DNA of 57,529 nucleotides from Candidatus Treponema caballi (GTDB lineage: Bacteria; Spirochaetota; Spirochaetia; Treponematales; Treponemataceae): positions 1 through 57,529 of the forward strand of contig JAGHRS010000027.1 of assembly GCA_018066285.1 (NCBI GenBank), written 5' to 3'. A model generated the notes under the pieces. It was not told where the DNA came from, ran no database searches, and was given only the letters and a program-made list of their open reading frames with translations. Made by a program: the position numbers and the translations under genes. Positions 11,961-17,507 of the stretch are shown here, piece after piece. Positions within the stretch are counted from its first letter, which is position 1. Each line of letters starts with the position of its first letter.

Positions 11961-11989
11961 TTGTAGGATATTCTTCATTTCTGTACAAT
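11961..11989 (+). promoter_or_regulatory. Promoter of uvrD, apparently leaderless
   Basis: TTGTAG (11961-11966), a 17-nt spacer and TACAAT (11984-11989). Only 7 nt separate the -10 box from the ATG at 11997, so transcription would start at or next to the start codon. No Shine-Dalgarno is present. Confidence 0.55.
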
Positions 11990-11996
11990 GCTCAGC

Positions 11997-14180
11997 ATGG
12001 ATCTTGACGAACTCAAGCATGAACTAAACCCCGAACAGTACCGCGCAGTTACAACAACAGACGGAGCCCTGCTCATAATTGCAGGAGCTGGCTCAGGAAA
12101 GACGCGGGTCATCACGTTCCGCATAGCACACATGCTTGATACCGGCATTCCGCAGAGTGCCATTCTCGCCCTTACCTTCACAAACAAGGCCGCAAAGGAA
12201 ATGGAAGAGCGCGTAAAAAGCCTTACCGGCAAAAAACTGCAGAACCTTACCGTTTCCACATTCCACGCGTTCGGTGTCCGCATTCTCAGGGCAAACATAG
12301 AAAAGCTCGGATGGAGAAACAACTTCAGCATTTACGACGACACTGACAGAAACCAGCTCATCAAGGAATGCGGCCGTGAGCTCGGCTATACGTCAGACGG
12401 TCTTGATGTATATGCAGTGGGAAACCTCATTTCAAACGTGAAGATCGGACGCTGGAGATGGGGAGTAAACGCTAATGAGCAATACAGACCGCTGTATGAA
12501 AAGTACCAGTCAGGTCTCAAACTCTATAACGCAGTTGATTTTGACGATCTCATCGGTCTTCCGATAAAGCTTTTTCATGAACATCCGGATGTGCTTGAGC
12601 GCTATCGGGAACGTTTCAAGTACATCATGGTTGACGAGTTCCAGGATACAAGCCTGCAACAGTACGAGTTCATGCATCTTCTTGCGGATAAGAATGTTGC
12701 CGTTGTCGGTGATGATGACCAGTCAATCTACAGCTGGCGTGGTGCCAACTATGAAAACATCCGCATGTTTGAGCGTGATTTTGCAGATGTTCAGGAGATA
12801 CGCCTTGAGCAGAACTACCGCTCAACGGAGACTATTCTTGCAGCTGCAAACGGCGTAATTTCACATAATACAAACAGAAAGGATAAATCCCTGTGGTCGG
12901 GGAACGGATCTGGAAAACCAATAGAGATTTACATGCCTGAGAATGAGGCTGAGGAAGCTGATTTCATTGCGGAATCCATACAGGGCATCTGCATGGAGGA
13001 AAAGCGGCATTATGATGATTTCGGAGTGCTCATCCGCGCGAATACGCTTTCACGCGCCATAGAAGAGGCGTTTCTTGAGTGTAACATCCCCTACACTATG
13101 TCAGGCGGCACGAGTTTCTTCCAGAAAAAGGAAATTAAGGATGTCATCAGCTACCTCCGCGTTTGCGCAAACCACGACGATGACATCAACCTCCTCCGCA
13201 TCATCAACACACCACGGCGCGGTCTTGGGCGCGGTGCCATAGAGCAGCTCAACAGCATTGCTGCAGCGAAAACGTGTTCGCTTTGGGAAGCAATTGAATA
13301 TCTGATTAAATACTTTTCCGGCTATGGCGTCGGAGAAGCCATTCCAGGCCCTGATGAACTTACAGGAGCTGATGGCGCTGCAAGTGTTGCAGGAACAGCA
13401 TCCGCTTCCGAAGATGACAGCTGGTTTACAAGCGATGATGCAGCTGAAAACGATGTCGTAGCGCGCGCTGCATCCCGTCTGGGCTCAAAAAGCCTTGCCG
13501 ACCTTGAAGCTTTCCACGACCTTATCGTAAACCAGCGCGCTGAACTTCTTGCAAGTAACCGCGGACTTTCAAAAAAGGTCCGTGCGCTTATCGATGCCAT
13601 TGACTACAGAACGTTCCTGTATGCTGAAAACCCTAAAAGCGAGAAGGCGGCTCAGTTCAAGTTCAAGATGATTGAAGATCTGATACAGTCAATCGACACG
13701 TGGGAAAACAATCCTGACAACTTTGACACGGGCCTTTATGCTTACCTTAACCGCATCACGCTGCTTTCACAGAACGATGGCGATGATGACAGTCTTAAAG
13801 GAAAGGTCAACCTGATGACCATTCACGCGTCGAAGGGACTTGAGTTCCCGGTCGTCTTCATTGCAGGCTGTGAGGATGGCATCATCCCGCATGCAAGAAG
13901 CCTTGAGGATGCAGACGGCGGCGGCATTGAAGAAGAAAGACGCCTCTTCTACGTCGCCATAACGCGCGCCCGCGACAAGCTCTTCCTTTCATGCTGCCAC
14001 CACAGAAAGCACATGCAGCAGGTCGCGGAAAGCACACCATCCCCGTTCCTGGATGAAATTCCCGCAAACCTGGTCGAATATCACGAGCCCCAGACTGAAG
14101 TCACCAGCGACAAGCTCGCCGACATGCTCGAAATGATGAAGATGAAATTCGCCCCCGACACGCCTGAAGAAAACGCCTGA
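11997..14180 (+). CDS. pcrA: UvrD/Rep/PcrA-family DNA helicase
   Basis: This is a superfamily 1A 3'-5' helicase for repair and replication restart. Motifs in order: the Q motif region LNPEQYRAV, Walker A AGAGSGKT (29-36), TFTNKAAKEM (Ia), VDEFQDTS (II), GDDDQSIYSWRGA (III), QNYRST (IV), MTIHASKGLEFPVVF (V) and RRLFYVAITRARDKL (VI). At 727 residues it has full PcrA length. Residues about 455-490 form an acidic, Ala/Ser-rich low-complexity insert in the 2B region. An ATG nine nt upstream is in frame, but MDLDELKHELNP is preferred because the -10 box would otherwise overlap the start. Whether it is orthologous to Rep or to PcrA/UvrD cannot be fixed by eye. Confidence 0.93.
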   Translation: MDLDELKHELNPEQYRAVTTTDGALLIIAGAGSGKTRVITFRIAHMLDTGIPQSAILALTFTNKAAKEMEERVKSLTGKKLQNLTVSTFHAFGVRILRANIEKLGWRNNFSIYDDTDRNQLIKECGRELGYTSDGLDVYAVGNLISNVKIGRWRWGVNANEQYRPLYEKYQSGLKLYNAVDFDDLIGLPIKLFHEHPDVLERYRERFKYIMVDEFQDTSLQQYEFMHLLADKNVAVVGDDDQSIYSWRGANYENIRMFERDFADVQEIRLEQNYRSTETILAAANGVISHNTNRKDKSLWSGNGSGKPIEIYMPENEAEEADFIAESIQGICMEEKRHYDDFGVLIRANTLSRAIEEAFLECNIPYTMSGGTSFFQKKEIKDVISYLRVCANHDDDINLLRIINTPRRGLGRGAIEQLNSIAAAKTCSLWEAIEYLIKYFSGYGVGEAIPGPDELTGADGAASVAGTASASEDDSWFTSDDAAENDVVARAASRLGSKSLADLEAFHDLIVNQRAELLASNRGLSKKVRALIDAIDYRTFLYAENPKSEKAAQFKFKMIEDLIQSIDTWENNPDNFDTGLYAYLNRITLLSQNDGDDDSLKGKVNLMTIHASKGLEFPVVFIAGCEDGIIPHARSLEDADGGGIEEERRLFYVAITRARDKLFLSCCHHRKHMQQVAESTPSPFLDEIPANLVEYHEPQTEVTSDKLADMLEMMKMKFAPDTPEENA

Positions 14181-14210
14181 ACACAGAGAAATAACTCTTT
14201 TAAAAGCAAC

Positions 14211-14341
14211 GGGGTGTGGGACACACCTGCAGAAACGCAGAGCCGCGCTGCGGCGCTGTGGTATCTCACTCACATTCGGCTTTGCCGAATGTTCGGGGCC
14301 GATGCACGTCTCTGTGTTTCTTCCAGCGCATCCCACACCCC
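14211..14341 (+). repeat. Long hairpin repeat, copy 1
   Basis: A 131-bp imperfect palindrome. The outer arms GGGGTGTGGGA/TCCCACACCCC are perfect. An inner stem AGAAACGCAGAG (14231-14242) pairs with CTCTGTGTTTCT (14310-14321) through one G-U. The apical hairpin is ACATTCGGC-TTT-GCCGAATGT (14272-14292). Between stems lie the conserved strings GCTGCGGCGCT, GGTATCTCACTC and TCGGGGCCGA, shared with the reverse complement of copy 2. It begins 30 nt after the uvrD stop. It could act as a structured RNA, a terminator-like 3' end or a mobile palindromic element. Confidence 0.85.
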
Positions 14342-14375
14342 TTTTCTCTAAAAAAGGCATTTCTCTGCAACGGGA

Positions 14376-14460
14376 CGTTTTCTTCGGATGCCGCAGCCCT
14401 AATAGTCCGCTTTTACGCGCGGAGCGCGGGGGCTGGCGGGACATGCTTTTAAAGAAAACG
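14376..14460 (+). repeat. Separate nested hairpin between the two long repeats
   Basis: CGTTTTCTT (14376-14384) pairs with AAGAAAACG (14452-14460). Inside, CCGC-AGCCC (14391-14399) pairs with GGGCT-G-GCGG (14429-14438), with one bulged G. An apical CGCGC-GGA-GCGCG hairpin occupies 14416-14428. It shares no sequence with the flanking long repeats. The single-stranded linker CTAATAGTCCGCTTTTA joins the inner stems. Function unknown. Confidence 0.55.
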
Positions 14461-14541
14461 GATTTTCAGGCTTTCTAGGGCGGCTGACATTTGCCTATTT
14501 TAAATAAACTGCTTTCAGCAAAAAAAACATCCCCGATTCTC

Positions 14542-14681
14542 TGAAGCATGGGGTGTGGGACATACCGTAAGAGACACATGGTCGTGCCTCGGCCCCGAGC
14601 GCGCTTGCGCGCGAGTGAGATACCTTAGCGCCGCAGCATGACCATGTGGCTCTGAAGGGAGGGCCCACACCCCATGCTTCA
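14542..14681 (-). repeat. Long hairpin repeat, copy 2 (inverted relative to copy 1)
   Basis: A 140-bp palindrome with a perfect 18-bp outer stem (14542-14559 with 14664-14681; core GGGGTGTGGG/CCCACACCCC). An inner stem runs from AGAGACACATGGTC to GACCATGTGGCTCT with one mismatch. The apical stem is GCGCGC-TT-GCGCGC. Its reverse complement aligns with copy 1 at the loops and junctions, while the stems differ in a base-paired, compensatory way. It ends about 55 bp before the secA ATG. Confidence 0.85.
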
Positions 14682-14700
14682 AAAAAGCACATGTTTTTTC

Positions 14701-14729
14701 TTGCTTAAATCAGTTTTTCTTATTAAATT
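14701..14729 (+). promoter_or_regulatory. Weak promoter candidate for secA, leaderless geometry
   Basis: TTGCTT (14701-14706), a 17-nt spacer and TAAATT (14724-14729), then 6 nt to the ATG at 14736. Both hexamers are only partial matches, but the spacing and distance to the ATG match those of uvrD and folC. There is no Shine-Dalgarno. Confidence 0.35.
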
Positions 14730-14735
14730 AGAATA

Positions 14736-17507
14736 ATGTTAGACGCAATTATGACGCTTTTTTTCGGTTCAAAGCATGAGCGCGACATTAAAGCATTAAA
14801 ACCAATTCTTGAAAAAGTTAACGCTGAGGAAGCATGGGCTTCTTCACTTACCGCAGAACAGTTCCGTGAAACATCAGACGGCTTCAGAAAGCAGATTGCC
14901 GACGGTACTTCCCTTGACGACATTCTTCCAAAAGCATTTGCGCTTGCCCGCGAAGCAAGTAAGCGTATTCTTGGTGAGCGCCCGTATGACACGCAGATTA
15001 TGGGTTCCATCGTCCTGCATCAGGGCAAGCTTGCTGAGCTTAAGACCGGTGAAGGAAAGACGCTTATGACCGTCGCCGCTGCGTACCTTAACGCACTGGC
15101 AGGAAAAGGCGTTCACGTCGTCACTGTAAACGATTACCTGGCAGAGCGCGACGCAAACTGGATGCGCCCTGTCTACGAATATCTGGGCGTATCCGTCGGC
15201 ATCATCGTTGCCGGCATGGATAACGCCGCACGCAAAGCCGCCTACGACTGCGACATCACGTACGGAACGAACAACGAGCTCGGCTTTGACTACCTTCGTG
15301 ACAACATGCAGATCAGCCTTGACCAGAAAGTCCAGCGCGGTTTTGCCTACTGTATCGTCGACGAAATTGACTCCATCCTCATTGATGAAGCCCGTACTCC
15401 GCTCATCATCTCAGGTCAGGGCGAGGATGACACCGCCAAGTTCTACGAGGTCGACAAGTACGTAAACCAGCTCGATGAGGTTGAGAAAGACCCGGAGACT
15501 GGCGATTACCCGGAGGAAAGCCCGCTTCATCCTGATGTGATCATCAAGGGTGACTACAAGCTTGATGAAAAAAGCCGCCGCGTATCATTCACCGATGACG
15601 GCATGAACAAGATCGAGGCAATCCTTCAGAAGCATAACGTCATTTCAGGAAGCCTCTTTGACGAGGAGAACTTCGAGTACATCCATTACTTCACTCAGGC
15701 TGTCCGTGCCCATAAGCTCTACAAGAACGATGTAGACTACGTTGTCAAGGACGGCCAGGTCCAGATTGTCGATGAGTTTACCGGCCGTATCCTTGAAGGA
15801 CGCCGCTATGGAGACGGACTGCATCAGGCAATCGAGGCGAAGGAACACATCCGTATTGCGCAGAGGAACCGCACGCTTGCGACAATCACGTTCCAGAACT
15901 ACTTCCGCATGTACTCAAAGCTTTCCGGCATGACCGGTACCGCAGAGACTGAGGCAATTGAATTCAGTAAGATATACAGCCTTGATGTCGTTGTCGTGCC
16001 GACACACAAGCCGGTCGCACGTATCGATGAAAACGACGAGATTTACCTTACAGAAGACGATAAATGGGAAGCAATCTGCCGCGAAATTCAGGAAGCCCAC
16101 GCAAAGGGTCAGCCTGTTCTTGTCGGAACTGTTTCCATTGAAAAGTCAGAGCACCTTTCTGCCCTGCTCACCAAGAAAGGCATAAGGCACGAGGTCTTGA
16201 ACGCAAAGAACCATGCACGTGAAGCACTTATCGTAGCTGAGGCTGGCGCATATGGCGCTGTCACCATTGCAACGAACATGGCTGGTCGTGGTACCGATAT
16301 CAAGCTTGGTGGAAACGCGAAGTTCCGCGCCGAAAAGCGTGCAGGAACACAGGCAACACCAGAGCAGTATCAGGCCGCATACGAGATTGAGCTTGAGCAG
16401 TGGAAGAAGGACTACGAGAAGGTCAAGGAAGCAGGTGGATTGTACATCATCGGCTCTGAACGGCACGAAAGCCGGCGCATCGACAACCAGCTCCGCGGTC
16501 GTTCCGGCCGTCAGGGTGACCCGGGCCGCAGTAAGTTCTTCATCTCAATGGATGACGATTTGATGCGCCTGTTCGGCGGTGAGCGCATGAAGGTCATGAT
16601 GAGCCGGATTGGCATGCAGCCGGGTGAGCCTATCTACCACCCGCTTATCACCAAGAGCATTGAAAACGCCCAGACAAAGGTCGAGGAGCGCAACTTTGAC
16701 ATAAGAAAGAGGCTGCTTGACTTCGACGATGTCCTTAACGAGCAGAGAAACACCATATACAGCCAGCGCGACAGCATCCTGTCTGACGACAATCTTGCAG
16801 AACGCGTCATGGGCAACGCAGAGGATATGGTCGATGACATTGTCGATGATTTCCTTGAAGCTAACCACAAGAACCCGGCTGCCGCACAGGGTGAACTCAC
16901 GGATGAGCTTAAGCGCGTATTCGCACTGGAAGCAGATCTGCCAGAAATGACCGGGAAAGCTGATGGGGATGCAATAAAAGCGAAGTTTGACGCTGCACTC
17001 AAGAAAGACCTTGAAATGAAGCAGAGCCTTGCAGGTAAAGAAAACCTGAACATGTTCATCCGCTATCAGTACATCCAGGATATCGATAAGAGATGGCTCG
17101 ATCATCTTGAGCAGCTTGAGGCTCTGCGCGAGGCTGTGTACCTCCGCTCTTACAGCCAGAAGAACCCTCTTACCGAGTACAAGATTGAAGGCTTCAACAT
17201 CTTCTACGACATGATGGATGAAATCAGACAGGCCATCGTTTCACGCTTGTTCCGCGTCCGTGTCCAGGTGGGACCGGCAGACGCAAGAATGCGCGGTGCA
17301 ACAGGCCCACGCCAGATGAACGCCCAGCACAACGCCATGCAGTCCTTCAACGGAAACGCAGCCCGCGCCGCCGCTGACAATAGCCCGATGGCCCAGCGCC
17401 GCCAGGGAGACAGCGTCACCGTCGTCCGTCAGGGTCCGAAAGTAGGCAGAAACGACCCGTGTCCATGCGGATCAGGAAAGAAGTACAAGAACTGTTGTGG
17501 AAGATAA
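14736..17507 (+). CDS. secA: Preprotein translocase ATPase SecA
   Basis: SecA is the motor ATPase that drives unfolded preproteins through SecYEG. The 923 residues contain Walker A TGEGKT (104-109), the DYLRDNM segment, VDEIDSILIDEARTPLIISG (DEAD-like motif plus start of the preprotein cross-linking domain), TNMAGRGTDIKLGG, and IGSERHESRRIDNQLRGRSG (motif VI). A helical scaffold with WLDHL follows. The C-terminal zinc-binding SEC-C tail is GRNDPCPCGSGKKYKNCCGR. All domains appear intact. The start codon is the first Met of the conserved MLDAIMTLFFGSKHERD N-terminus. It is monocistronic, closed by its own terminator. Confidence 0.98.
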   Translation: MLDAIMTLFFGSKHERDIKALKPILEKVNAEEAWASSLTAEQFRETSDGFRKQIADGTSLDDILPKAFALAREASKRILGERPYDTQIMGSIVLHQGKLAELKTGEGKTLMTVAAAYLNALAGKGVHVVTVNDYLAERDANWMRPVYEYLGVSVGIIVAGMDNAARKAAYDCDITYGTNNELGFDYLRDNMQISLDQKVQRGFAYCIVDEIDSILIDEARTPLIISGQGEDDTAKFYEVDKYVNQLDEVEKDPETGDYPEESPLHPDVIIKGDYKLDEKSRRVSFTDDGMNKIEAILQKHNVISGSLFDEENFEYIHYFTQAVRAHKLYKNDVDYVVKDGQVQIVDEFTGRILEGRRYGDGLHQAIEAKEHIRIAQRNRTLATITFQNYFRMYSKLSGMTGTAETEAIEFSKIYSLDVVVVPTHKPVARIDENDEIYLTEDDKWEAICREIQEAHAKGQPVLVGTVSIEKSEHLSALLTKKGIRHEVLNAKNHAREALIVAEAGAYGAVTIATNMAGRGTDIKLGGNAKFRAEKRAGTQATPEQYQAAYEIELEQWKKDYEKVKEAGGLYIIGSERHESRRIDNQLRGRSGRQGDPGRSKFFISMDDDLMRLFGGERMKVMMSRIGMQPGEPIYHPLITKSIENAQTKVEERNFDIRKRLLDFDDVLNEQRNTIYSQRDSILSDDNLAERVMGNAEDMVDDIVDDFLEANHKNPAAAQGELTDELKRVFALEADLPEMTGKADGDAIKAKFDAALKKDLEMKQSLAGKENLNMFIRYQYIQDIDKRWLDHLEQLEALREAVYLRSYSQKNPLTEYKIEGFNIFYDMMDEIRQAIVSRLFRVRVQVGPADARMRGATGPRQMNAQHNAMQSFNGNAARAAADNSPMAQRRQGDSVTVVRQGPKVGRNDPCPCGSGKKYKNCCGR

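Follow-up and report, generated by a model that had tools for sequence, protein, structure and literature searches.

Paired hairpin elements next to secA in Candidatus Treponema caballi: a dispersed family of possible mobile palindromes whose arms mirror neighbouring DNA

Two opposed hairpins between a helicase gene and secA

The window, which here means the whole 57,529-nucleotide stretch of Candidatus Treponema caballi DNA that was analysed, contains two long intergenic hairpins with a UvrD/PcrA-type helicase gene (11988-14180, plus strand) on one side and secA (14736-17507, plus strand) on the other, both genes being named from their translations. The 3' end of the helicase gene abuts the first hairpin. 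A sequence-only reading had placed two inverted copies of one element at 14211-14341 and 14542-14681, and both were found there in that orientation, with element 1 spanning 14205-14346 and element 2 spanning 14541-14684. We designated the more stable strand of each window copy as strand A, which is the minus strand for element 1 (-81.3 kcal/mol vs. -73.1 for the plus strand) and the plus strand for element 2 (-87.8 kcal/mol vs. -85.9 for the minus strand). Both strands of both copies surpassed all 200 dinucleotide shuffles in folding (z of -7.6 to -9.8). The conserved tip and its adjoining stems lie at 14228-14323 on the minus strand in element 1 (77.1 bits with model R1, see below) and at 14568-14656 on the plus strand in element 2 (94.5 bits, the top R1 score in the genome). 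Junction strings and outer arms (GCTGCGGCGCT, GGTATCTCACTC, TCGGGGCCGA, GGGGTGTGGG) align between the two copies as had been described, and between them the sequences of the apical, middle and outer stems are unlike, with pairing kept.

The pairing extends past the coordinates given in that reading. The end of the uvrD/pcrA-type gene together with the following bases (14166-14202, plus strand) pairs with an inverted copy of itself at 14349-14385 (minus strand) on the 5' side of element 1 strand A, in which 30 of the 33 aligned bases are identical (score 18.5 vs. at most 16.5 in 2000 shuffles). Likewise, the secA leader and first codons (14691-14778, plus strand) pair with an inverted copy at 14442-14530 (minus strand) on the 5' side of element 2, identical at 64 of 78 aligned bases (score 30.5; shuffle maximum 19). 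Given that the coding bases alone give weak signals (p 0.08 and 0.03) and that one swapped control, the uvrD end against the left flank of the other hairpin, reached p 0.02, the case for mirroring in the window, above all for uvrD, rests on the coding and adjoining bases together. A small extra inverted repeat (GCAGCCC...GGGGCTG) is located between the two mirrored flanks at 14386-14441 and is part of neither. Conservation of an element alongside secA across species was ruled out; the start of secA (N-terminal 200 aa) was recovered in six congeners, and the region upstream of it differs and is without the element.

The family and its folded strand

A DNA search and a core pattern gave about 15 sites in the source genome. 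A covariance model (R1, built from 18 source-genome copies) found 23 copies there at E < 1e-4, all of them intergenic and dispersed, and no match outside the source genome among the 59 genomes searched; weak matches in a congener proved to share the architecture while differing in tip sequence. Models R2 and R3, iterations to which congener copies were added (R3 is 63 nt long), detected 12 copies in genome G005, a single one in G002 and, in G001, six candidates, some of them in tandem. Further copies therefore exist, and at E <= 0.01 R3 matched 57 of the 274 genomes searched in the bacterial family. The carriers belong to just two genera, that of the source genome and a second, large one (g4), and the 18 other genera among these 274 genomes have none. 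The same reading did not recognise the family, and Rfam, at gathering as well as relaxed thresholds, returned nothing meaningful over the elements. Exact core patterns gave no matches, or five in unrelated phyla that are taken as chance, among 85,000 species genomes and viral contigs, and plasmid, phage and viral contig records showed no similarity to the elements.

In the fetched loci the long hairpin reaches well outside the 63-nt model, giving an element of about 150-300 bp with each arm mostly 35-120 nt. The copies are dispersed, with a tandem arrangement only in G001; loci L132, L135 and L138 of this genome, at contig ends, are tandem arrays of about 280-bp units with the hairpin, and a 113-bp tandem repeat lies beside one of them. 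Several g4 elements (L164:1435-1902, L166 and L221) bear a further hairpin module of the CCTAGNGAGCGT...GTAGG type adjoining the tip, as if one structured piece sits inside another. Another observation is a neighbouring hairpin at L174:1652-1866 whose terminal repeat is nearly the same but whose tip and bulge (AAATGTATATAGTTAC) differ; it may represent a sister subfamily missed by the models.

Along strand A, the tip is ordered as P2 stem, S, CGAG, hairpin, CGAG, a bulged U, S', a bulge (A)RAUACCWUA and P2', the 3' bulge ARAUACCWUA being conserved. The two CGAG strings oppose each other as tandem G-A pairs, presumably sheared, and the tip may resemble 23S rRNA near the L1 site. The S-S' pair covaries (CG in 18 copies, GC in 9), as does the closing pair of the tip (GC/AU), and P2 covaries between species with its register unchanged. 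Outward of the tip, inspection revealed conserved 3x3 GNA-type loops in the source genome and other loops in g4.

Covariation, whose absence would have counted against the earlier reading, is strong. Among the 18 source-genome copies, double changes are present at 20 of 26 pairs, double-change cells number 99 vs. 35 +/- 4.5 after shuffling, and the covariation score is 0.497 vs. 0.158. The mismatches are also asymmetric, with G-A against C-T on strand A at 148:33 in the own genus and 155:31 in g4, and G-T against A-C at 73:43 (p 0.007) and 112:52 (p 3e-6), respectively. Because G-A and G-T outnumber their complements on strand A, we read the constraint as acting on a single folded strand, either RNA or single-stranded DNA.

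Mirrored arms, movement and the alternatives

Arms of different copies are unrelated (median likeness 8 vs. 7 shuffled), and arms within one copy are complementary (median 28 vs. 7 with swapped partners in the source genome). As an independent check, the complementarity of 70-nt arms taken outside the model exceeded the 95th percentile for swapped partners in 57 of the 66 copies. Coding ends reappear inverted across the hairpin for mutS2 (...GKTYVTLK*), a glnQ-like ABC ATPase (...FLSSVL*), an EamA-type transporter (aligned over about 75 columns), and also for MATE-type transporter, RNase H and nagB-like genes, all named from their translations; for a desulfoferrodoxin-type gene end the mirroring is seen by eye and the test is not significant. 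Fifteen of 67 gene edges rank among the highest 5% of swapped edges (expectation about 3), and many copies have no detectable mirrored coding end. Since protein-recognisable gene ends and starts are taken as the originals, the arm opposite the gene is the copy. Because the outer arms often invert the neighbouring gene end, the apparent covariation of the arms is in part copying of target DNA and not only compensatory change. The earlier view that stems varied in sequence yet paired denote selection on the fold is therefore retained for the conserved single-strand fold, but not in full for the outer arms, which are at least partly inverted flanking DNA. In the recent copies of genome G138, the outer flanks differ between copies and are self-complementary above or near the 95th percentile of swapped flanks in 7 of 12, and these comparisons suggest that the mirror copy would arise at insertion or soon after.

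Across 375 alignment columns the two-hairpin units at C17 and C35 share 90.4% identity in unrelated surroundings, and about 15 copies in G138 have a common block at unrelated loci (median identity 90.6%, 12 measured); near-identical blocks at unrelated loci require movement. Head-to-head pairs are present in the source genome at C30 (the window), C17, C35, C61 and C7, as well as in two g4 loci. The original proposal of a structured RNA, a mobile palindromic element, or both was accordingly the right frame, with mobility indicated by the 23 dispersed copies, the duplicated two-hairpin unit and the near-identical copies at unrelated sites, and a conserved single-strand fold besides. Copies have matching positions in a few species pairs, and in one such case (L182/L215) the orientation is opposite, an arrangement that points to independent insertions at that gene end. 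A AATGTCGAGTTTT-type terminal inverted repeat (TIR) marks the ends in about ten g4 loci and not in all copies. No consistent direct repeat indicative of target-site duplication was present at eight TIR-bounded copies, and no empty site was seen.

Two side observations concern the surroundings of the copies. Loci L067 (G000:C19) and L141 (G001:C88), from two species, have differing tips in the same interval between a nagB-like gene and a ROK-type regulator, with flanks about 71% identical. Also, another dispersed repeat (GGTGGTTGAGCCAAGTCG / CTCAACCACCAC) is located near many elements of G138 (L190, L192, L194, L200, L203).

Many of these features look RNA-like, namely the tandem G-A motif, the bulged U, the conserved asymmetric bulge, the G-U excess and the strong covariation, and four orthologous copies are almost unchanged in their interior. 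They could be expected of a multicopy structured non-coding RNA family, in which putative strand A transcripts would bind a host protein via the tip, selection at each locus would keep the fold, and dispersal would be secondary. No shared promoter is evident, however, because a promoter-like site is absent at the window copies and the near-identical G138 copies are without common upstream sequence; moreover, the orientation relative to genes is mixed, the family has no Rfam match, and the inverted copies of coding ends are left unexplained. We consider this explanation unlikely.

Within the near-identical G138 block, the unpaired parts do not vary, nor do several stems, and ten pairs are changed on both sides. 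These double changes are in interior stems and occur almost without one-sided intermediates, as would also be produced if ordinary replication template switching at an existing hairpin copied the flank across the axis and kept correcting the arms, with no element-specific insertion. Such growth in place would account for the inverted copies of the flanks, but the mismatched loops between the changed stems persist, and since long fold-back copying would erase them, selection or short-tract repair is needed in the interior stems. Also, the near-identical blocks at unrelated loci need movement, and the asymmetry follows strand A, being scored by element orientation and not by replichore. This alternative appears less probable again.

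The copies are also polar relative to their neighbours. Gene 3' ends are closer on the 3' side of strand A (median 63 vs. 117 nt, p 1.5e-4), as are gene starts (median 128 vs. 252 nt, p 2e-5), and nine of the ten best-scoring mirrored gene 3' ends are on that side; compared by side, mirrored ends amount to 9/32 vs. 1/17, a difference that is not significant alone (p 0.13). That the host keeps the copies as bidirectional transcription terminators or as hairpins at mRNA 3' ends, as the many copies just past gene 3' ends and the A/T runs at the outer ends of some arms might indicate, is very improbable, given that a scan for a stem followed directly by a U run gave no site on the long hairpin and only three weak ones vs. 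1.4 expected, that as many copies face gene starts, and that the conserved fold is antisense to the abutting gene when the gene 3' end is on its 3' side.

A proposed mode of insertion and comparison with known systems

We contend, with a probability of about 0.5, that both hairpins of the window are copies of one mobile palindromic element that is non-autonomous, in which the folded strand A tip would be recognised in trans and the outer arms would be produced by fold-back copying of the 3' flank. Starting from the folded strand, the movement and the mirrored flanks as observed, we postulate the enzyme recognition, the order of joining and the fold-back synthesis as follows. A trans-acting enzyme would recognise the tip of folded strand A, as single-stranded DNA or possibly RNA, and on insertion the 3' side of the element would be joined to the target DNA. 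The opposite strand would then fold back and be extended with the 3' flank as template, and this extension would give the 5' side a mirrored version of that flank and produce a longer hairpin, the stems of which would later drift under selection for the fold. Counting against the scheme are the mismatched loops kept between changed interior stems in G138, which long fold-back copying would erase, so that selection or short-tract repair must be at work there as well, and the many copies for which no mirrored coding end was detected. Because the mirrored coding ends record which flank is the original, this mechanism is directly testable.

The family could not be linked to a transposase, an integrase or a reverse transcriptase. 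The source genome has a single Y1 (RAYT-type) transposase gene (L114, G000:C26:13850-14176 and flanks), flanked by its own GGGGACGGTTCTC / GAGAACCGTCCCC repeats, and this is a separate REP system of the source genome that is absent from six congeners. RAYT as the mobiliser was ruled out, since this transposase has a different repeat and none is found in the element-carrying G005. Reverse transcriptase gave two matches in the source genome and none in G005, an element carrier whose genome is 88% complete, which fits poorly with a role as the mobiliser.

If the proposed mechanism is true, a bacterial mobile element could be defined by a folded tip and not by sequence, with an insertion that leaves a mirror of its target. 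It can tentatively be speculated that these hairpins are mobile elements of a new kind, in which one folded strand of a small hairpin would be recognised by an enzyme, insertion would take place beside genes, and the outer arms would be the adjoining target strand copied across the hairpin, so that each copy mirrors its neighbour. Strong covariation in palindromic repeats could then stem from DNA copying, which calls for caution in covariation-based RNA discovery.

The literature searched (subscription journals and supplements fell outside its scope) contained no description of the family, which may be an undescribed one set among the small mobile palindromes, and its target-mirroring may be categorically new. 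MITEs and small interspersed repeats such as BOX, RUP, ERIC, Correia and bcr are small, non-coding, dispersed and palindromic, and some form RNA structures. The elements share the first four of these properties, but, in contrast to MITEs, terminal repeats are restricted to some family members, target duplications were not found, and the arms are non-homologous between copies and mirrored from the target.

Integron attC sites conserve structure while their stem sequence varies and have strand-specific unpaired features. The elements are alike in both respects, although they are mostly outside cassette arrays, and identity with attC was ruled out, with paired RYYYAAC / GTTRRRY boxes (R''/R') in 0 of 76 copies vs. 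3 shuffled. Similar to REP/REPIN (BIME) sequences with their RAYTs, the elements are intergenic, multicopy, hairpin-forming, non-autonomous and often in head-to-head pairs, and being recognised as a folded single strand may plausibly be another common trait. However, REPs are 20-40 bp long (PMC3733652) and their copies share sequence, whereas these elements measure about 150-300 bp, their arms are unrelated and their internal-loop tip is conserved, and no RAYT is flanked by the element repeat, the sole Y1 transposase having a GGGGACGGTTCTC-type repeat. Sponge mitochondria are described as having repetitive hairpin-forming elements that invade intergenic regions (PMC2800124); these are likewise invading intergenic hairpins, but of organelle genomes, and the likeness is one of description. 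While failing the tests that define either REPINs or attC sites, the elements may work somewhat like both, in that a folded strand would be the unit.
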